Part shown: positions 4,010 to 48,722 of the stretch, piece by piece
Layout of the letters: each line of letters begins with the position of its first letter
How positions within the stretch are numbered: position 1 is the stretch's first letter
DNA from: Nymphaea colorata
Taxonomy: Eukaryota; Streptophyta; Magnoliopsida; Nymphaeales; Nymphaeaceae
Assembly (NCBI RefSeq): GCF_008831285.2
Contig: NC_045150.1
Coordinates: 17,746,600 to 17,810,599, forward strand
Direction of reading: 5' to 3'
DNA: 64,000 bases
Translations under genes and position numbers: made by a program
The notes under the pieces: model-generated
The model's input: only the letters and a program-made list of their open reading frames with translations
Told to the model about the DNA's origin: nothing
Database searches by the model: none

Positions 4010-4600
4010 GGACCGGGTCGTCGGTCCTGGTCACGGTCGGGTTCATTAGGCTAACCCAAGAATAAATAAGGGTTGGGCAGTTGTAATTAGGGTATCGTAA
4101 AAATTATTGAGTGTTTCTCTAGAAAGAGAAACCCTAGTATGGAGATTAGGATATGGCTCATCAAGGTTACCCGTGGCTAACAATGGTATCAGAGCGAGCG
4201 AATGACTGACACTATGACAGCCATGGACGCCCTCCAAATACACATAGAAGAATCGATGGAGGCAGTGGACCAGCGTTTATAGGCGTTGGAGCGACATCAT
4301 TTGGAAATGGACGGAAGGATTCAGCTGTTCTCAGCGAGCAGCAATCCCTCACAGCAATGATGTGAGAGCTTCTACAGCAAGGTAAGGACTTAAACTCACC
4401 CAAGTACAGAGAGGGCTGATACAGAGAGCTATTGACCGGCACGGGGAGAGCATCGACCGCCTCCACTGGGAAAAGCAGAGACAACGATGTCCTCGATGGG
4501 CAAAAGGTGTTGGGAGATCGACTGGATGGGGGACAGCCAAGATGCCAAACGGTGTGAATGAGATGTTGGAGGCTATGATAGCATAATACATGCAGATATG
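4010..4600 (+). mobile_element. 5' remnant of an LTR retrotransposon
   Basis: The tail of an LTR runs to about 4182 (…GGCTAACA) and is followed at 4184 by TGGTATCAGAGC, the sequence complementary to the 3' end of initiator methionine tRNA that primes plant retrotransposons. An ATG at 4202 opens a gag-like leader (motifs MDALQIHIEESMEAVDQRL and ALERHHLEMDG) of the charged, coiled type found at the start of Ty3/gypsy gag proteins. It is broken by TAG after QRL and by TGA near 4358. No pol domain and no second LTR were found, so only the 5' end remains. The left edge of the LTR is not resolved. Assignment to Ty3/gypsy is an inference from gag character. Confidence 0.6.
4184..4195 (+). promoter_or_regulatory. 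Primer-binding site (tRNA-iMet)
   Basis: TGGTATCAGAGC, identical to the PBS of the copia element at 42052, one base after the apparent LTR end. Confidence 0.8.
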
Positions 4601-5313
4601 TCTGATGCTTGATGAGCTTCTTGGTAAAAAAACTAATGGAGGTCGCTCTGTCAGGAAGGGAAGTTCACGCACAAGCAACGATTGATTCGAAAACTTCAAA
4701 TGGTGAACGGGAAGAAGAAGATGTTCAAGGCAATGGGTCAAAGCTTGTGCTCGTGGGGGATGCTAGAAGAAAATGTCATGCAGTTAGGGAGGATGAAGAC
4801 ATTGTTCTCCCACTCCAAGTCTTGCCACAGAGGACGATTAGTCATGTCATCGAGCACCAAGGCAAAGACAACAACAAATTTTATGAAGCCAAAGGTGCTC
4901 TGGTAGTTAAATCAATGAGCCAACAAGAGGATGGCATAACCCATGGGACTGAGCACATCGAGTTTGGCATTGGGTTCACTAGTGAGGGAAAGAAGTACAA
5001 AGAGAATGGGTTAGAAACAGAGATGCTCTCGCATATTTTAGTTAGGAGTCGAAGTTTAATCAGGCAGTAAGAGAAGCCCCCTTAGAATCAAGATGGGGCA
5101 GTAACAAGAGAGGATATGGACGGGTCGGCCATTGGGTTCGATGATCAGAAGGTGTTGCTCCTGCTGAAAGAAGTACACAGGCAGGACACAGATGAATACA
5201 ACCACAATAAAAAGAGAAAATGCTACCTACCATTACAGCCCGTGTATAGGAGAGATGCTTTGGGCGACTATGGAACTTGGCCACCGATTAACTACGTAAT
5301 TGTAGCATCTTAG
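4601..5313. other. Internal retrotransposon debris or unknown DNA
   Basis: An open frame of 153 codons occupies 4609-5070 (+). It is rich in E, K and Q but has no motif I can name (no zinc knuckle, protease or RT). It may be remnant internal sequence of the element starting at 4010. Coding status is doubtful. Confidence 0.25.
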
Positions 5314-5390
5314 GTGATGCACATCATATAACGTAGCCACCTGACGATGGGGAAGGTGCTATATTGGCCATGCAGCGTGCACTAGAGCAG
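5314..5390 (+). pseudogene. Mitochondrial-type beta-ketoacyl-ACP synthase exon, copy 1
   Basis: A 77-bp exon-like piece with acceptor TTAG before 5314 and donor GTATGC after 5390 reads DAHHIT, a stop (TAG in place of the family's CAG), then PPDDGEGAILAMQRALEQ. This matches the strand of plant mitochondrial KAS (the fatty-acid elongating condensing enzyme) that precedes its first catalytic histidine; related plastid KAS enzymes carry DAYHMT at this place. Because the flanking intron borders came along, the copy is from genomic DNA, not from mRNA. Two further copies lie at 8710 and 15445 inside a longer repeat. Similarity with those copies extends about 30 bp upstream and 50 bp downstream only. 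It is a captured, dead fragment. Confidence 0.65.
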
Positions 5391-5850
5391 GTATGCAATG
5401 ATGCTCCACAAAAGTTGCCTTTTGTACCTTTTTCTTTTTTGCCAAAGCTGGAGCTCAACTCAGCTCATGTACAACACTCACTGCCTTTAAGAGGTGACAT
5501 AGAATTGGAATCAAAATATGATTCATTAGAAAAATGGAAAAGTTTTCAGAATTTTCAACTCTAGAGCAAGATTAAGAAATTGAAATTTCGTGAAATGCAT
5601 GACTAAACTTGTAGACTTTCAGCACGCACACTTCACTTTTAAATATTGTCAGACGTACTCCTCCATTACTTAAAGATTTGCAGATTCACTTTTCCCTACC
5701 CAATTGTTACATTTGTTAGATGTAATAAATAAAAAATAATCATAAGAGGCACCAATAGGAAAAGTTGTTCATAAATATCAAATAAAAAATAAAAAGTTTT
5801 TTGGAATTCGTGTAAGTAATTGCCCACACACACATCCGCCCCCCACATCA
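5391..5850. other. No recognisable gene
   Basis: The first ~50 bp are shared with the KAS-bearing repeats (intron sequence). The rest is AT-rich and holds nothing I can name. Confidence 0.6.
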
Positions 5851-21560: not shown

Positions 21561-22254
21561 TTTTTAATATTTAAAATCAACTCTAAATGCTACTTTTCTT
21601 CCTTTAACGAGTAAGAATATTGCCTATGAATTATAATTAGTTCAAACCCCATTTTCGAGATTTTGTAAACATGAGAACCTCTCTAATTTGCAATGCAGGG
21701 TTTAGTCAGGATCCTCTTTCCACAAATAAAGTCTTGAAAGAGTTGTGAAATAAACGTTCTTAATTATAACACTGTTTTCGAAAACGTAAAAACATTTGAG
21801 GCTAGTTTGAAATTCTCATAGGATGAAGGCTAAGGACCTCTCTTAGCCGACATCTTCCATTTTGCCCGAAGTTTTTTCTTTCCTCATGTTTTCTTGCTCC
21901 AACCGTGAACTTTCATAGCATTCTGGCCATCTCCGGCGTCCGACGGGGTCTGGCGACATCTGACCACCGGCGCTTTCAACTGACCCTGTCGCCACGGTTG
22001 GACGACGAGATCGTCCCATGGTGACGTCCTTTCTCTCTAGCACCCAACTTCTTTTCCTATTCCTTTCTCTTTTTTCATTTCTTCAAAGTTTTGTTTGTCC
22101 GACCGGAAAATTTTCAGCGGCCAACCTCGGCGATCACCGAGGCGACCAAAGACCGAGACTTCAGATGCCTTTCTCCCAATTTTATTATATGCCATACATT
22201 AACATATATATTATCCCCATTTTCCTCTTCATTAGAAAAAATAGGTTTTCCTTA
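21561..22254. other. No recognisable gene
   Basis: Spacer between copy B and the Harbinger element. A GC-richer patch at 21900-22150 has open frames on both strands but no known motif. Confidence 0.5.
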
Positions 22255-23103
22255 AGTAGTGTTTGATGGCCTCGAAATATGGAATTGGAAATATATTTCT
22301 TGGAAAAATGAAATGAGAAAAATCTCTTCGATTTTCATTTTGATGTGTGTGTCATGACTCAGAAATATATTTTCAGAAATATATTTCTGTGTGTTTGATG
22401 ATAAAGGAACATATTTCCAGAAATATATTTCCAGATTTTCTAGAAGAGAAGATTGATCTAGCAACAACAATAACAAGCAAAAGCATAGACGCATGTCGTA
22501 AAATTTAAACATCACATGTGGTAATAGTGATCATACAAAAATAACAGCTCTTGGATACCTAGTAACATGTCATACGACTGAAAACACTCCAACACTTGTA
22601 AACTTGCCAACACACATTCATCCACTAAGGATGACATAAATTACTCAAGGAAGACAGTCAAATAATTCACCTTTCTTTTGAGCAAACTGTTCCCATTTTG
22701 TAAGAGGCTTCGACCTTCGAATCTGAAGAAAAAAATAGGACCAGAATATGATAATGCCTTTATAGTTTTCCGACTGTTCTATAAGAACAAGTTAAACAAA
22801 CTGAACGTCAACCATTCAAGTGACGCTTCTTGACCTGTTGCAACTAAATCAATGGAATTGCAAACCCCAAAATAGAACAAAATACATAATATGGTCAAAA
22901 TAATTGGTATATTTAAAAGACATTGAAAGTGCTAACAGCTGATGAACATGAGGCACACTCGGTAGAAGTATGAACAACAGGAATATGAGAGGCATTCTAT
23001 AATTCTCACTGTTAGATCATGAAAAATGTAGAACACAGAAGCTCAACAATTCCAAGCCAAACAAAAAATTGAACAGAGCAAAAGATGTGTAAGATCAAGG
23101 AAC

Positions 23104-23546
23104 CTGATCCATGGCAGAAGGCATCTTCCCATGATGAAAGGTTGAGACCATGATTGCGTGAGCATGAACATGATTCATGCTCACATTGAATTGATCCTGC
23201 AACTTCCTCGCCCTTTCGGCACACATATTGATAAGGGTCTCCTTCCTTCTCTGAACATTCTGAGAAATTATATACCAGAAAATCCACCAAGATACCAATA
23301 TCCCACCTAGTATCCACATAAAAATCAGTCTTTTCCTCCAGCTCCCCCACGCCTTCACAGATCCAACATACACATATTTGTGTTGGCTAGTCCAGTCTCC
23401 ACCTACAAAGTTTCCCCACCATTTCAACCCCAATTTTCCTGTACTCCCACAACCCCAGACTTCTAGGCCATGAAATCTGTAGCAAAGACCCAATTCATGA
23501 TTCTCAAAGTTAACAACCTCATCCATCTCTAATGAAGGCCAACCAT
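23104..23546 (-). pseudogene. Captured N-terminal exon of a cytokinin-receptor histidine kinase (AHK2/AHK3/AHK4 type)
   Basis: A minus-strand open frame includes a membrane-spanning stretch (LIFMWILGGILVSWWIFWYI) and then RRKETLINMCAERARKLQDQ, FNVSMNHVHAHAIMVSTFHH and GKMPSAMDQ, ending exactly at a GT donor (23102-23103). These are hallmarks of the start of the CHASE domain of plant cytokinin receptors, which sense cytokinin at the ER or plasma membrane and feed a phosphorelay. The preceding residues (WRKRL before the helix) look more like AHK3 than AHK4. An in-frame stop lies near 23548 and the remaining CHASE, kinase and receiver domains are absent. The fragment sits inside the Harbinger element, downstream of its transposase and in the same orientation, so it was captured together with intron sequence. 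Confidence 0.75.
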
Positions 23547-23611
23547 CTTACCGTGAAACTTTGAAACATCCAAAAAGAAACTCAACAAGACATAAAACCC
23601 CACTCCATTAC

Positions 23612-23959
23612 TTACAAGAAAAGGTACAATATTTTCCCCCACAAAGTGATGCAAATAAAAAAAGAGAAACGCGACACTAAATTCCAGAACATATGAAAGT
23701 GGGCATCCCCAAAAAACAAATAGTCGAGCAAGAGGTAATAACAAATCATTACTTCTCCGTGGACAGATAGATAATTTACATAAGTGTCGACAGAAGCATC
23801 AACGTTAAATACATAGCACAGACAAAATGTAACTTTCACCATGTCTATTGTTTTAAACAAAAAGGTTCTTCCAAAATTTGATGATTGTATTTCTTCATAT
23901 ATGTCTCTTGAACGACCCTCGAACATGACATAATACTTATGTCGCGGCTTCATCTTCAA
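23612..23959 (-). other. Open frame of unknown meaning in the Harbinger element
   Basis: A 115-codon minus frame begins HKYYVMFEGR, a motif reminiscent of the N-terminal domain of some RNase H1-like proteins, and continues as hydrophobic, low-information sequence. It lies between the captured receptor exon and the transposase. The W and C residues that normally follow the motif are absent, so I do not assign a function. Confidence 0.2.
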
Positions 23960-24268
23960 TTACCTATGAACATAAACATATAGATCAGCTTGATGAACTC
24001 ATATTCTACATATAATAACTAACAAAAGTAAAACATAAACAAAACAAACATATGAATAACTAATAATCATCAACACAATTGTTTCCCCTTTGTCATAAGT
24101 TCCTACGCACCTACGATTTTGAAAATCCATGAACATTTAAAATGTTATTGAAGTGTGCAAGTCATTATTGGATCCTCGATGAATACTTTGTGCCGCACTT
24201 TCAAGTTCGGTTACAAATGATGTACTCTCATTTGCGTCGTCAGATGCACCTTCATCAAGGTCAAAATG

Positions 24269-25471
24269 TTATGCATGAGGATTATGTTCTATAATGAAAT
24301 TGTGTAGAACAGAGGTGGCTAACACAATCGCAACTTGTTTATGATAAAGAAATGATACTTGTGCTTTTAGTATAGGGAACCATCCTTTTAACCGACCAAA
24401 AGCTCGTTCAACGGTTGTTCTTAATGATGAATGATGATGATTAAACAGTTCCTCTGCAGATGTAACATGTCGTGCCCCCAGTGCATTAAATTTAGAGAGG
24501 TGGTATCAATGACCTCAATATGAAGTTAGTAAACCACGTATGTTTGGGTATCCTCCATCGCCAAGATAGTATTTCCCTACACAATAAAGTTATTATGAGT
24601 TTGACATCAAATAAATAGTAAGGTAAGACCTACACAACAATCTATTACTTGTTTATGAATGAGTAAATTGATAATATAACATGTAGGTATGACAAAAAGG
24701 TCGATCTCAGTGTTTAGTGCATTGTATAATAGTCTTGAATCTATCGCACTGTCTTCCCAACCCGCAAAAACATAGTGGAATCGCATGTCGAATCTGAATC
24801 CGACTACAGGCAAGACATTTTGTGAAAGAGTTCCTTCTCTATTACGAAACCTCGATTGTTCTAATGTACGTACCCAAACTGATATGTGAGTGACATCTAT
24901 AGCTCCTAAACAATCCTACGTGTAGTGAAAAATGTTAGTTGCACTGCATTTGTACAATTTAATATGTGATCATGAATTGGCTTACCTTAAAATATGGATA
25001 GAAACGAGGATTGAAGCGGATTTTGGATGGAGTGTCATCGTTCGGTCGGCTAATGTATTCTTTACCCAATTGACATAGTGCTCGTAGGATGAGGTTGACG
25101 TACTTACTAATTGTTTGACCAGAGTACTAGAACGTGTTTTGGCATGCACGATTGCGCTCATTATGGCCAACAGTAAGTAGAAAGATAGCAACTTGTTCTT
25201 CAATGTAGATTTCACGACCATCTTCTACTAAATTTTTCTCTTTCAAGATATTACATAGTGTAATAAACGAGTTGTGATCCATGCGCAGTAAGTCTAAGCA
25301 ATTTCTTGGATGGCCGTCAATGATATTTTGAACAAATTGACTACCAGCATTTCTATAAGGGTGAACAAGTTGCCTACGAGGATGTAGGAATCTAAAAAAC
25401 ATGATGACCAACACAAACATCATTTTCACCCATGACTGCAGCACTGGGTAGCACATACAAAAAGGTAACAT
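24269..25471 (-). pseudogene. PIF/Harbinger transposase (DDE_Tnp_4), three exons, nonsense mutated
   Basis: Exon 1 (about 25471-24986) has the N-terminal helical part with NSFITLCNILKEKNL and EEQVAIFLLTVGHNERNR. Exon 2 (24915-24681) carries DCLGAIDVTHI with the first catalytic Asp, then LPVVGFRFDMRFHYVFAGWE and DSAIDSRLLYNAL. Exon 3 (24576-24269) carries YYLGDGGYPNIRGLLTSY with the second Asp, then TTVERAFGRLKGWFPIL with the Glu, and HNFIIEHN near the stop. Introns have GT..AG borders. Stops interrupt the frame at 25127-25129 (TAG) and at 24515-24517 and 24506-24508 (TGA). Each is one C-to-T change from Gln or Arg codons expected in the family. The enzyme cuts and pastes the element at TWA targets; this copy cannot make it at full length. 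Confidence 0.85.
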
Positions 25472-25741
25472 TCATCATATCCAATCATATCATGTACGAA
25501 TAAAACATTCTAATATGCAAAGGGGAAAGGAATTAATAGCCATAAAACAAACATATTTGTATAAAGTATAAAGCAAGTTCAATAGCATGTTTTCAATTTC
25601 ATAGAAGTTAGAACGAACACAACAATGAATTATAAAGATGTAGGAGAAACGTACTACTTACTATTGTTGATTGAGATTATGCAGCAACCAAGGCACACGT
25701 TCGGTCGGCCGAAGTTTGAGGAAGATGATTGGCTTATTTCC

Positions 25742-26240
25742 CTACTCCATTAGCATCATGGCTCTTAAGTGCATGTCATTATCAATCTCTCCCGAGTCAA
25801 GCATTTCATGCAATATATCCAAACATTTGTCCATTGTTTGTGTTGTAGATGTGTTTATGATTGTTCGAAAACTATTGACTATGTCATGCAATGTCGATCT
25901 ATAGTCCACGTCATTCGTACTTAATCTTGCTCTTTTGTTTGATGAGTTTGTGGTCCTACTTTCAGATGCAGTAGGTTGTGAATCTTGTTGAACATGTGCC
26001 AGTGATGGTATAGGAGAATCACTATTCAACATTTGTGTGAAAGTATTTATCGTGAAATTAGGCGTATGGGTTATAGGGGTCTGAGGTGCATGATTAGACT
26101 GATGGTCTTCGGTCATCATGTACGAAGCACAATTACCACCATCACGACCTGTGGCAGTTGACTGACCATACACTTCATGTAACTCTTCATAGTGTTTTCT
26201 ATTTTTGCGCTCCTTTGAATTTCCGCCTGTCAGGGAATTT
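25742..26240 (-). pseudogene. Harbinger partner protein (Myb/SANT-like ORF), C-terminal exon
   Basis: After an acceptor (CAG before 26240) the frame reads KNRKHYEELHEVYGQSTATG, a conserved motif found after the Myb/SANT-like domain of plant Harbinger partner proteins. A Ser/Thr/Asn-rich middle follows, then DKCLDILHEMLDSGEIDNDM and a stop at 25742. The partner normally binds transposon ends and brings the transposase into the nucleus. The SANT domain itself should lie in an upstream exon between 26241 and about 27200, but I find no trace of it. The gene is therefore probably truncated. Orientation and order upstream of the transposase are normal for the superfamily. Confidence 0.7.
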
Positions 26241-27267
26241 CTGCAATTTGAATTTTAGTCATATATGTTGTATATAGTAATTGACATGATGATTGAGTAA
26301 CTGATGACATTGAGAACAAAAAAATCCAATGATATTATCAGAAACATAAAAAACATTCACACATTTCTACCACTGATACCGTAAGAGAATAGCAATGATA
26401 AATGATAATTTACTACGCATGTTAGCAACAATGAGTGGACTAAATGTTTCCTTCTAGGAAAGTAACCATCACAAATGAAAATAATCACAAAAGCTAAATT
26501 CTGCAATAATTAAATAAATAACATTCAAATGAATGAAGAAAGCAATTGAAGAAGAAGTCGAAGAGTCACCGAAACCCACAAGGAGTAAACAACTGAAGGC
26601 TTGGTCTGCCTCATTTTCAAGTGTCAACGGACATCCACAAATAAGAACAAAAGGATCTCAAGTAGGCTAAGATTCTGTTTCCAACAGAGCAGTGCTTTTC
26701 TGTTGATAGGTTTTGGCCCTTGACAGTTTTATTGCCCAAAAAATAAAATATATAGAGGGCAAAAAGTATGAAGCCCACCCACACAAGTACTGAGATACAA
26801 AAATTACACTGAAATTTAAGAGATGGGGTTCCAGCTTCATGTTCCATTATACCTTATGTAGAAGAAAAACAATAATTTTCGTGCTTTAAAACCCATTTCT
26901 CAGTCAAGGGATGGATGGCAAAAAAGCACATGCTTCTTCATCTTTGATAGGATCTGTTAAATTGATTATGTTTTCTTCCACTTCAATCTACATGCTACCA
27001 TAACATAATGTAAAGACCCGGAGACAACTGATTGACTAATAGTAAAAAGGGAAACGAGGAACACAGATATCATGAACTGTCATGAAAGGGTATTTCAAAA
27101 TTAGAACCAAATTATCTTTCTCGTATCAATTGTAACAGGATTCCAGGATGCATCAACAATTGATCAGGATATTCACTTCAAATCCTACAAAGAAATGCAT
27201 AAACTGGCACTAGATAAGCATGAGATGATAGGCTGCAATGGACGGTGGGAAAATGGCGGAGGAAGAG

Positions 27268-27270
<3 letters not shown>
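26241..27270. other. Element interior without recognisable exon
   Basis: AT-rich interior where the SANT exon would be expected. A 76-codon minus ORF at 26617-26847 is hydrophobic and unrecognised. Confidence 0.5.

Positions 27271-27300
<30 letters not shown>
27271..27300. repeat. (GA)n microsatellite
   Basis: Fifteen GA units; on the minus strand it is a CT run in the probable leader of the Harbinger genes. Confidence 0.95.
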
Positions 27301-27302
<2 letters not shown>

Positions 27303-27896
27303 CCTTTCACCCCTTCTAGACGTTGCGCTGCTGAGGAGATGCCCAAATCAAGCCGCTGGTGAGAACGCTGTGCAGGAGGAAGAACGCCGTGCTGGCGACT
27401 GATGTGTCTGAGGTAGCAGCAGGGGGAGAAGGGGAAAGGTGTGACGAAGGCAGGTTGGGTGAAAAAAAGACGTGAGGGTTTCAAGTGAGAGAGTGAGAGG
27501 GTTTTGAGCAAGACTCCTTTCAGCAGAATGCGAAAGGCGCGAGGAGGAAAACGGGCGGCGGTGTTGACGGTGCGGTGGGGTTGAGGAAGCAGCAGGGTAA
27601 GGCAGCTGCAGAGGATGAGCAGGGTGAGGCAGCTGTAGAGGATGAGAAGAGCAAGACGAGGAGAGAGACGCGAGGAGAAGCCTCAATGGGCAAAAAAACA
27701 TTTCTAGAAATTTTTTCCCACCTTTCAGGCGAAAAAAATTTTCGGAATGAAAAAATTTTCGGAAAAAAAAATTTCGAAAATGGGTTCAATGGTCATTTTT
27801 TCCTTCCCTTGTTTGATGGGAAGGAATTTTTTTAAAAAATTTGAATTATTTTTCCGGTTAAACAATACATTTCCAATGCATCAAACGCTACCTTCA

Positions 27897-42783: not shown

Positions 42784-43823
42784 ATTGAACAGCCAAATGG
42801 CCTTTCTCACACAACAATCTAGCAGCCAAAACAACAGAAAATGTTACAACAACAATAACAGCAATATTTGATTCAATTCCAAAGGGCGTGGGTTCAATCC
42901 GGCAACTCAAACACGAAATCCTCAAGGGTTGACCAATGGAGAGTTCGCTAAATCCAAGGTACGGTGTCAGATTCGTGGATTAAATAATCATAGTGCCTTC
43001 AAATGTTATCACGGGTTTGATTATGCTTATCAGCCTCGTGATATGTCACGAGCCTTTGCGACTATGAAAGTCTTCGATCCTACTGATCAAGATTGATTTC
43101 CCAACACTGGAGCAAGATCTCATGTGACCGATGATCCAGGTAAACTCAAAAGTTGTATTCCATATAATGGAACAGAAAAAATTATAGTAGGAAATGGTCA
43201 GCATCTTGATATTACACATATTGTTGCTACTAATATTCATGTGGGCAATCGTACAATCCCTCTAGACAATGTTCTTGCAGTACCCGACATTAAGAATAAT
43301 CTTATTTATGTCAGCAAACTTACTTCTTATATGCCTTATGTGTTTGAATTCTCTTTCAATTGTTTCTCTATTAAGGACAAGGAAACCAAGGAAGTGATTG
43401 CAATAGGGTCTAGAGAAGGCGACTTATACGCTTTCAAGCCAAAACCAAAGATTGTGTTCTTCTCAACAAGGTTCCGGTCAGCTCCCTTTGAAGTTTGGCA
43501 TGGACGACTTGATCATCCACATCATAAAATATTAAACTTTATGGCTATGAATAAGTTGATTACTGTGACAAGTAACTCGCATGAATCTTTCATCTGTGCT
43601 CGTTGTCAGATGGGGAAGGCAAGGCATGCAGACTTCCATTTATTTCTGTTGATGATGATTGTGATTCATTATTTGCTAAGGTTCATTGTGATTTATGGGA
43701 ACCAGCTCCTGTTACTTCTTGTCAGAATATCTAATGTTATGTCTTATTTGTGGATCAATTTTCTAGATATTCCTGGATATATCCTCTAAAACAGAAGTTT
43801 AAATTTTTTGCTAAATTCCTTGA

Positions 43824-43945
43824 GGGCCCGTTTGATGCACAGGAAAAATCCTGTGCATCAGTGAAAAATCCTGTGCATCGGGTGAAATTTGTACGGCGAG
43901 GGGAATTCACTCCGATGAGTGGTGTGTGCATCAAACGCCGTTAAA
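43824..43945. repeat. Foldback segment at the left end of the nested element
   Basis: GATGCACAGG-AAAAAT-CCTGTGCATC forms a perfect hairpin at 43833-43858, and GTGTGCATCAAACGCCG at 43921-43937 is an inverted copy of the element terminus. The first ~115 bp are thus themselves a small inverted-repeat unit. Confidence 0.75.
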
Positions 43946-46400
43946 AACCACCCGCAAATTCTGTACGATGAAGGTAAAATTCACCCGAAAAAAAGTCTGA
44001 GCTTTCAGCTCGGACTTTTTACCGCAGATTTTTTTGAGAGCTTTCTCGCTGCCTCTTACCCCTCCATCGCCTCTTCCCCTCTCCTCTCTCGGTCTCTCGT
44101 TCCTCTCCTCTCTCACTGCCTCTTTCCCCTCTGTCGCCTCTTCCCCTCTCCTCTCTCGCTCTCTCCTTCCTCTCCTCTCGCGCTCTCTCGCTCTGTTGTT
44201 CCTCTCCTCTCTCGCTCTCTCTTTCTTCACACGCAGGCCTTTAGACACCATCGCTCGTCTCTCTTTCTTGCCCCTTCCTCTCTGCAAAGCCGTCTTCCTC
44301 CCTGTGTCCAAGCCTGTGATTTGCCTCTCTATCGAAGTCGGCGATCTTCCTCTTCCTCCTTCGCGCCAGGTAAGGTGACCTTGCTTCTCCCCCTTCTCCC
44401 TCTGTTTCTGCTATACGGTGCCCTAATCCCCTTTCTCTTTTCTCTCTCTGCAGGGTTGGCTGGAAGAAGCTGCTTTTCTAACTGGCTGTAGGTCGAGCCA
44501 CGAAAATCAGATTCATCTCTCCATGTGAGTCCCTTGTGGCAGTTAGATGTGATAATTTTTTTGCTCTTCAGTGGGATTGTCGAAGCTATAATTTTTTTGA
44601 TCTCATAGTTTAGTTGCATGTGACTTACGAAGTTACTTTTTATTTAAGGTGGTCAAGATGATGCTAGTATTTGATATGGAATAGGCCATCTAACTATATT
44701 GTGAAAACCTTTTCTTTGTTGTTTCCTTTTTGCTTGGCCTATTCTCTCTATATCGTTTCCTGTATTCTGTGACATTTCAGTAAACTGTGCCCATCTTTAG
44801 CTGGCTTCTTAGTCCACGGCAAGTTGGAGATTTGTGAAAGTGGGTTGCAATAAAAGTTACCGAAATGATCTGGTGATTAATGTGCTTGGCCAAAACCTTT
44901 CATGTTGGGTCTTGGTTGAATGTAAGGTCTAAATGGATCTTCTGGGTCCTTGTGGGTCTTCATTCAGGCAGACCGTGCCTGACATGTTATCTAGGTTTGT
45001 AAAATTGACATACAATTTTTTTCTCAAATAACTTATCTTATTTTGCAGCTGCAACAAGCAGAAAGATTTTCTTTTCTTTCATTATAAATATCAAATATAG
45101 TAAAATTGGTTTCAGATTTTGTAGTCGGTATCTGAATTTTGAGAGAGTGATCTAATTAAAAACCACTTGATCAAGTCAGTGCCAAAACCTCAATAGGGAA
45201 CATGTTTGTGATGTTTTTATTTTGAGAACTCCTGCTGCAAAGTAAATTGGGGGTTTTCCAGTTTTTTGTTCATTAGCTAATTTTCCTTTCTTTCTTCCTC
45301 TGCAGCTCTGCTCTCTCTCTCTTTTCTTCCCAAGTCTTTGCTTTTTCTTCCTCCCATGCTGTTTCCGTTGTTCTTTGAGTTTATTCATTGCTGTTATATT
45401 CCCTTGAACAGTCGCAGTGGTCTGCTGGTCCCTAAAGCTGGTTGCCTTGATTGCTATATGGACCTAAGCTATCCAGGACTCATATCCTGCATATTTTACT
45501 GCATTTGTCAACAGTGAGTCAGTGACTTCTAGAAAAGATGTACTTCTGTAGCACGAGGATTGGCTTTTGAACATTTTGACAAAATGTAAACAATCCTTGG
45601 GAATGCAGAAGAAATGAACACCAGTGACTGCTTACTCGACTGGGCCAACTATGCCAGTTTCCTTCTAGATCAACTACTTTTATGATCTGTTTTATTGTAG
45701 TTGACCTTTGGACCTAAGCTATCCATGACTCATAACCTGCATATTTTATTTGCTCTATTTGCTGTTTAAAGTGGGCTTGTGTTTGCTTCTCTCAAGTTCT
45801 TGTTGCTGTTTCCTCATACACAGCCATCCATTTGCTTCAACAGTGTAGTTGTAGTTGTCAGCTGCTTCCTCCTAATCCTGCTTGTCCTATTTACTGTTGC
45901 AAGACACTTTAGTCTTCAGTTTTAGGCTTGCAAGGTTGACTAGTTTCTTTATCTATAGAATCTAAAATTAGTTTTAACCTTTCAAGTTATACATAGCATT
46001 TTTTTTCTTTGAAACACGAATCTGTGCTTATTTAAATTTATTTTTATTAGCTCTAATTTGTTTGTCGGCTATGGAATTATGATCTTGTTCCATATAGCAA
46101 TGTGTATATCTGTTCAATGTTCATACCTTACAATCTTGTGCATCAAACAACTACTACTAACAGTCCTGAAAAAAAGTCTTTCAAATTTTCTATCATGTGC
46201 ATCAAACAGAGTTAATTTTACCGTGCAAAAAACTACCATGTGCATCAAACATGGTTAATTTTAGTACGTTAAATTTTACCCTCTCATCAAACACAACCTC
46301 AAATTGGAAGAGGGAGAAATTTCATCATGTAATTTTTTTTAGAAAAATTTACCATGGTAAATGTATCACGTTAAATTCTTCCATGCCATCAAACGGCCCA
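43824..46400. mobile_element. 2577-bp PIF/Harbinger-like element nested in copia integrase
   Basis: Starts GGGCCCGTTTGATGCAC and ends GCCATCAAACGGCCCA, imperfect inverted ends related to those of the 5.6-kb Harbinger element (xGTTTGATG). It is flanked by TGA (43821-43823 and 46401-46403), a 3-bp target duplication; removing the insert plus one TGA restores the integrase frame …KFLEFHKKIQT…. Subterminal GTGCATCAAAC motifs recur at 43923, 46136, 46195 and 46241. No transposase. The interior begins with a pyrimidine-rich leader (44050-44330) and an intron-like GTAAGG…TGCAG segment (44371-44453), so it resembles the 5' end of a gene. Confidence 0.8.
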
Positions 46401-48722
46401 TGAGTTTCACAAAAAGATCCAAACTAAGTTTGATGCCAAGTTAAAAGTATTTCAAAGTGATGAGGGAGGCGAGTTTAATAGTACGGCCTTCATAGACTAT
46501 TTAAAAGAAAACAGCAAAAATCCTACTGTAAGACGCTTGAGCAAAATGGAGTGGTGGAGCACAAGCATAGATCTATCATAGAATTGGGTCTTACTATGTT
46601 GTTTCATAGCAATCTCCTAACTCAATTTTGGGTTGAGGTCTTTTTCTACTGTTGTATGGCTCATCAATCTTCTTCCTTCACATGTTTTACATATGCAAAG
46701 TTCATATGAAATTCTTTTCAAAAAACGCCCAGATTATTCGTGTCTTCGTGCTTTTAGATCTAGATGCTATCCTTATATTCGGGGTTATACAAATCATAAG
46801 TTTCAACTCAAATTTTTACCATGTGTGTTTGTTGGCTATAGCAATCATCATAGGGGGTATAGATGCCTTTATCCTCCCATTGGTCGGGTATATATCTCTG
46901 GACATGTTGTCTTTGATGAAGCCGTTTTTTCCTATCAAACTCCCACGTCAATCCCTAGGGCCATCACCTCTAATGCTGATTTTGTCTCTTTTTTCAGACT
47001 CGTCCAAGGATCATCATCTAGAGTCCCAATGTTTAGCACAGATGCATACCTTCTATGCATAATTTAGAAAACCCACCTTCTATTCTTCCCAGAGAGATAC
47101 CAAACACTACATTACCTCTCCAAATCACCCAACCTAGTCCATCTCCAGCCTCATCGACAGCCTACTCCTTGTCCACTCACCCTATGACCACTCATTTCAA
47201 AGCCAGAGTTATCAAACATAATCCCACGTATGCACTTACTACCACATTCATTCCAAAGGAACTGTCCCACTACTCCCTTGCTCTCAAACACTCGGGTTGG
47301 CATTGATAGATGAAATGACTGTTTTATAGGCTAATCACACTTGGGATTTTGTGCCTCGTACTTTAGACATGCATGTGATTGGTAGTTGTTGGGTTTTCAA
47401 AACTAAAGTAAAAGGAGATGGGTAGCTTGAAAGACTCAAGGCTAGCCTTGTAGTGCAAGGATATACTCAAATACAAGTTCTGGATTTCTTGAAAACCTTA
47501 TTACCAGTGGTAAAATTTCTTGCTTTTGATTGACCTCTCAAACAATTAGACGTCAAAAATGTTTTTCTTAATGGTCATCTACCAGAGTTGGTTTATATTG
47601 AACAACCTCTCAGATTTAAAGATTCATCCAAGTCACATCATGTTTGTCGCCTAAATCGAGCTCTCTATGGATTGAGACAAGCACCCAGGGCTTGGTATGA
47701 TAGATTTGCTCAATTCTTATCTTCTGTTGAATTTATTGCTAGCATGATTGATTCATCTCTCTTTGTTCGACGACAAAGCAAAACAGTTACTATTTTACTA
47801 CTGTATGTTGATTATATCATTCTTACAGAAAATTCTTCTTCGTTTATAACATCATTTCAAGCAACCATCAGGCAACAATTTGCTATGACAGATCTTGGGA
47901 ATCTGAAGTATTTCTTGGGGGTTCAAGTTGATGGAACTTCATCGGGCTTATTTATGTATCAGTCCAAATATGCACAAGACATCCTCTATAGAGCACAAAT
48001 GCAGACCTGTAATACTATGAGCACGCCTATGTCTGCCAATCTTAAATCTTCTGATGGGCAAGATCAATTGTATTCAAACCCTAGAGAATGTCGTAGCCTT
48101 GCAGGGGCTCTTCAATATCTTACTCTCACAAGGCCTGATCTCTCCTATGCTGTAAATTTCGCATGTCAATTCATGCATGCACTAGTGGTGAAGCATTTTC
48201 AACTTTTAAAGCGGATTCTCAGATATGTTAGAGGCACTTCTCAATATGGAATTCAATTTTGTAAATCCAAAGATTTGACTTTACGAGCCTTCTCTGACAC
48301 CAATTGGGCTGGCTGTCCAACTACACGACGCTCCACGTCCAGAAATTGTACATTCCATAGTCCCAATTGTATATCTTAGAGTTCTAAGACGCAACCAACT
48401 GTCGCTCGTTCATCTTGTGAGGCTGAATACCGAGCTCTTGTTGGAGCTGCTGCAAAAAATAAATGGATTACATTCATTTTACAAGATATTGGTGTATATT
48501 TTTTCAAAGCTCTTATTTTACTTTGTGGTAATGTCTCTGCACTACATACTACCATCATATTATCATCAAGCTTGTTTTTTATTCTCGCATGAAACACTTG
48601 GAACTTGATTATCATTTTGTTCGCAAACAAGTAGCACTGGGAAACATAGAGACTCAATTTGTGACAATCGAAGGCCAGCTAGCTGATCTCTTTACCAAGC
48701 CACTATGGCAGCAGCGTCCTTC

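Follow-up and report, generated by a model that had tools for sequence, protein, structure and literature searches.

A PIF/Harbinger transposon of the water lily Nymphaea colorata very likely captured pieces of a cytokinin receptor gene and an RRS1 gene

Pack-MULEs are chimeras whose terminal repeats enclose fragments taken from several genes, and MULEs are characterized by a MULE transposase and a target-site duplication (TSD) of ~9 bp. The closest relatives of the locus described here belong to the PIF/Harbinger superfamily. Pifvine-3 of grapevine (2008) comprises PIF elements whose long 5' region mostly matches host exons and introns and is in some cases common to multiple copies; the captured exons lie in transposase-bearing elements (PMC2528002). 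Pack-PIFs of maize and rice were catalogued by Gisby and Catoni in 2022 with a pipeline that files any transposase-bearing element as autonomous (PMC8903248). The original prediction for our locus, made from the letters of the DNA, held that gene capture is less often described for PIF/Harbinger; this stands as a matter of degree, but both reports provide direct precedents. A literature search for captured cytokinin receptor or histidine kinase sequences in transposable elements, in the portions of the sources available, returned nothing that looked relevant, and a search pairing N. colorata with Harbinger found no paper.

The window, a stretch of 64,000 nucleotides of N. colorata DNA (NC_045150.1, positions 17,746,600 to 17,810,599), contains an element of 5638 bp that runs from 22255 to 27892 between the trinucleotides TTA and TTC, so that the predicted ends (22255 and 27893, ~5.6 kb) were correct to one base. 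Each terminus differs from GGTAGTGTTTGATG at 1 of 14 bases. The flanking TSD has one mismatch in the window copy and is perfect in four other complete copies, namely, L009 (2396 bp, TTG/TTG), L015 (3327 bp, CTA/CTA), L017 (2269 bp, TTC/TTC), and L035 (4749 bp, TTA/TTA); in the remaining carriers, both ends were not found at up to 3 mismatches in the stretches examined. The left end is present in high copy number (484 first-look candidates, of which the best 40 were scored). A DDE_Tnp_4 (PF13359) transposase is recognizable on the minus strand of the window (E = 1.4e-9) and in L035 (3.5e-16), and on these sequence features the element is assigned to the PIF/Harbinger superfamily. The Myb/SANT domain of the second open reading frame was detected in L035 (PF12776, 4e-18), L011, and L012, but not in the window copy. 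Four in-frame stops and the missing Myb part suggest that the window copy is probably no longer moved by its own transposase. In-frame stops also interrupt the long transposase matches of L011 and L012, which carry AHK DNA; L035 holds both domains, and its pieces served as the query of the transposase alignment, so their open frames follow from that choice. Elsewhere in the window (43097-48376), broken retrotransposon open frames were observed (RVT_2, 9e-39; gag_pre-integrase; SH3-like), which we take to be Copia-type.

An AHK-type exon was found inside the element as predicted, but the captured DNA is not confined to the exon at 23104-23546 and overshoots it on both sides. The exon starts with ATG and ends GATCAG/GTTCCT, and thus closes at its own GT donor. 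Its final 52 residues match the solved sensor domain of AHK4 (3t4j, E = 3e-16), and a transmembrane stretch was spotted by eye, whereas a Pfam search of the exon by itself gave zero matches. The predicted start of the CHASE sensor region, splice donor, and shared strand with the transposase were borne out, as was, by eye, the transmembrane helix. The 150-aa open frame fared less well: it is not a clean AHK frame, as stops occur at codons 6 and 28 of the true start frame, and the AHK frame is regained only via a 1-bp deletion.

Table 1. Features of the element and its captured DNA in window coordinates
Feature	Position	Strand	Remarks
Left target-site copy TTA	22252..22254		
Left terminal inverted repeat and subterminal region	22255..22430	plus	starts AGTAGTGTTTGATGG; family form GGTAGTGTTTGATGG
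Captured RRS1 (ribosome biogenesis regulator) fragment	22600..22735	minus	93% to C1:30310916-30311051
RRS1 exon, 52 bp	22671..22722	minus	acceptor TTTTTTTCTTCAG, donor GTGAAT
Captured AHK segment	22972..23690	minus	93.7% identity to parent C2:21240678-21241403
Captured beginning of AHK intron 1 (132 bp)	22972..23103	minus	alignment to C2 parent
AHK-type receptor, first coding exon (from its ATG to its GT donor)	23104..23546	minus	stops at codons 6 and 28, 1-bp frameshift
Captured DNA 5' of AHK start codon (144 bp)	23547..23690	minus	alignment to C2 parent
DDE_Tnp_4 transposase remains, three pieces (24212-24577, 24706-24915, 24986-25423)	24212..25423	minus	4 in-frame stops
Second open reading frame, C-terminal part	25745..26242	minus	Myb/SANT part not found here, present in AHK-free L035
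Third captured fragment, likely	26904..27225		93% to C7:16291487-16291810
Right terminal inverted repeat end	27877..27892	minus	reverse complement GGTAGCGTTTGATGCA
Right target-site copy TTC	27893..27895		one base off TTA

A whole-genome search with the AHK exon gave at least 14 places among the best candidates scored, genome counts being lower bounds: one gene on contig C2, two paralogous receptors (C7 and C8:8.54M), one fragment on C14, and ten element-borne copies. The C2 gene is headed by the same exon (ATG at C2:21240825) and continues with open frames for CHASE, HisKA, HATPase_c, Receiver_CRE1, and Response_reg. It thus has the CHASE, kinase, and receiver domains of an AHK-type receptor, whereas the window fragment includes exon 1 only. 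From its alignment with the window segment (726 bp against 719 bp), the C2 gene, apparently intact, is the parent of the captured piece. Blastn found no other part of it in the window, and a genome-wide CHASE search gave no place within the window. On C14 (L016, C14:2167000-2176900), three segments of the C2 gene that are non-adjacent in the parent (87%, 84%, and 74%) lie together in ~720 bp at 4708-5428. We initially regarded this locus as an element copy and dropped the idea since it runs beyond both capture borders; the scrambled fragment may have arisen by another, independent capture or be what is left of a pseudogene that has shrunk.

The AHK piece does not stand alone. An RRS1 exon with its splice sites kept follows on the 3' side in the same orientation, and a likely third fragment matches a locus on C7, which indicates that the capture is chimeric. 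The donor RRS1 exon, once joined to the next exon, matches PF04939 along its whole length from profile position 75 (E = 8e-22), compared with 9e-11 from position 92 for the frame of the next exon alone. The end of the AHK exon and the beginning of the RRS1 exon are both in phase 0. L009 and L015 also contain the RRS1 piece, and the acceptor AG is lost in L009. The C7-matching fragment is shared with L009, and 169 bp of it are present in L017 and L018; its C7 locus is, judging from the alignment, probably a further donor. The open reading frame beside this fragment, which presumably resembles Bap31-like proteins, had no match in a Pfam search. A further dispersed RRS1 fragment was observed at L042 (C1:37840200-37841400), where RRS1 pieces with 94-97% identity to L040 occur in a different arrangement.

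The search for copies of the element with and without the exon that the original prediction had proposed found ten and four, respectively (lower bounds). Ten of the 14 exon matches, the window included, adjoin the left end of the element family. In the four AHK-free relatives (L035 read whole, L036-L038 at the left part only), the family left end is followed by ~0.35 kb of other sequence and then by the equivalent of window position 23772 onward. The transposase stretch gave 55 matches in the genome when the best 40 of 172 candidates were scored, and AHK DNA adjoins transposase at four loci among the matches listed (the window, C3, C4, and C13:6.26M). The borders of the AHK piece recur: that at parent base 21240678 is common to the window, L011, and L014, and that at 21241403 to the window, L009, and L015. 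Two sub-lines can be distinguished. Sub-line A (the window, L009, and L015) keeps the AHK piece up to the intron border together with the RRS1 exon. Sub-line B lacks window 22421-23166 and comprises seven places (L011, L012 twice, L014, L017, L018, and L020), the junction of 22421 to 23167 being displayed by the alignment in four of the seven. A 3-bp deletion that creates TAG at codon 6 is present in all three copies holding the start region (the window, L009, and L011) and absent from the C2 parent and the C7 paralogue. As these copies span both sub-lines, the AHK frame was broken before A and B separated. Within L012, two left ends lie 874 bp apart (at 4076 and 4950; C4:1.448-1.449M), each followed by an AHK piece, and the two pieces are identical at 216 of 216 aligned bases.

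Taken together, it is very likely (probability about 0.93) that a PIF/Harbinger element took up AHK and RRS1 pieces, and probably the C7 piece, and spread by transposition with the AHK piece as a passenger. A parent located elsewhere, common borders, AHK-free relatives, and perfect 3-bp TSDs in other copies all support the capture originally predicted. The common borders and the common 3-bp deletion point to a single capture, after which the element transposed and underwent internal deletions. In this account the element took up the 726-bp C2 piece (719 bp in the window copy), and its sequence shows RRS1 pieces and probably one of the C7 locus as well; the capture-bearing element then spread to other contigs through cut-and-paste transposition and, as the common borders show, gave rise to the two sub-lines. 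The capturing element presumably carried a transposase, because transposase remains occur in members of both sub-lines. Capture may have occurred by break repair with template switching; the location of the donors on different contigs favors this route over a fusion of neighboring elements, as proposed for Pack-CACTA (PMC13317346). Two observations count against this account. The window TSD is not identical (TTA/TTC), and L015, which is without substitutions common to the other copies, clusters with the parent and paralogues in a tree of the AHK pieces (support 95; remaining supports 42-73, except for the identical pair in L012, with 97; L020 excluded). The position of L015 requires an early split or gene conversion, and the codon-6 stop cannot be scored there because this copy stops short of the start region.

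Could the copies still matter to the host? It is unlikely that they act in trans on the parent gene through small RNAs or methylation. At least ten element-borne places exist, and 219 of the fragment's 699 21-mers and 185 of its 696 24-mers are perfect matches to the parent, which makes the small-RNA idea possible, though unsupported; the other 480 21-mers differ from the parent sequence at one or more positions. Because the fragment is in sense orientation to the transposase, transcription running in from that side would moreover yield AHK RNA in the sense rather than the antisense direction. A shade less probable is that the sub-line A element acts as a putative exon-shuffling cassette, spliced into chimeric or neighboring-gene transcripts, or feeds small RNAs that tune the parent receptor. 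This idea derives from the pairing of a first AHK exon that retains its 5' flank and donor with an internal RRS1 exon on the same strand in matching phase.

The same retained splice sites, the phase 0 junction, and the open 150-aa frame might suggest a functional product translated from a transposon transcript that reads through, either a shortened peptide anchored in the membrane or an AHK-RRS1 chimera, but we consider this very unlikely. The codon-6 stop interrupts the AHK start frame in every readable copy, the L009 frame has one TGA and one TAG and this copy has lost the RRS1 acceptor, and dN (0.039) is close to dS (0.038) over the 115 codons beyond the frameshift, a rough figure based on 10.5 and 2.5 differences. 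Given the common stop and the dN near dS, we rejected the idea that the 150-aa frame has a coding role, and on the same sequence evidence a receptor decoy role is unlikely. Least probable of all is that the fragment is the leftover of an old local AHK gene hit by a PIF/Harbinger insertion: the degenerate fragment on C14 shows that dying AHK copies occur, but both AHK borders lie inside the element, identical borders recur on other contigs beside the same element ends, and blastn found no more of the AHK gene in the window; this origin was rejected on the borders common to dispersed copies. The captured AHK piece is thus best described, under the capture reading, as a broken passenger with no signs of selection.

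This element likewise resembles Pack-MULEs in holding pieces of several genes between terminal repeats, and differs from them in its DDE_Tnp_4 transposase and 3-bp TSD. As in Pack-PIFs, PIF/Harbinger ends enclose and disperse coding-gene fragments (PMC8903248), and L009 and L015 have intact ends and gene pieces with no transposase match; none was found in the alignments of L009, L015, and L017. The window copy holds host gene fragments between its ends as a Pack-TYPE element does, but retains transposase remains and is therefore not non-autonomous in the sense of lacking a transposase match. A pipeline that sets transposase-bearing elements aside would leave it uncounted as Pack-TYPE, which illustrates that captures can reside in copies still holding transposase sequence that are set aside by definition (PMC8903248). 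With the Pifvine-3 and Pack-PIF precedents, the water-lily capture is of an already known sort; it is a well-resolved PIF/Harbinger case in which one can trace the gene that served as donor, relatives free of the capture, the borders, the deletions that came later, and a stop across both sub-lines. The likeness to Pifvine-3 lies in host exons and introns inside a PIF element that are in some cases common to several copies (PMC2528002). The species and donors differ: the water-lily element joins AHK exon 1 with an RRS1 exon, and the stop common to its copies can be dated to before the sub-lines split.
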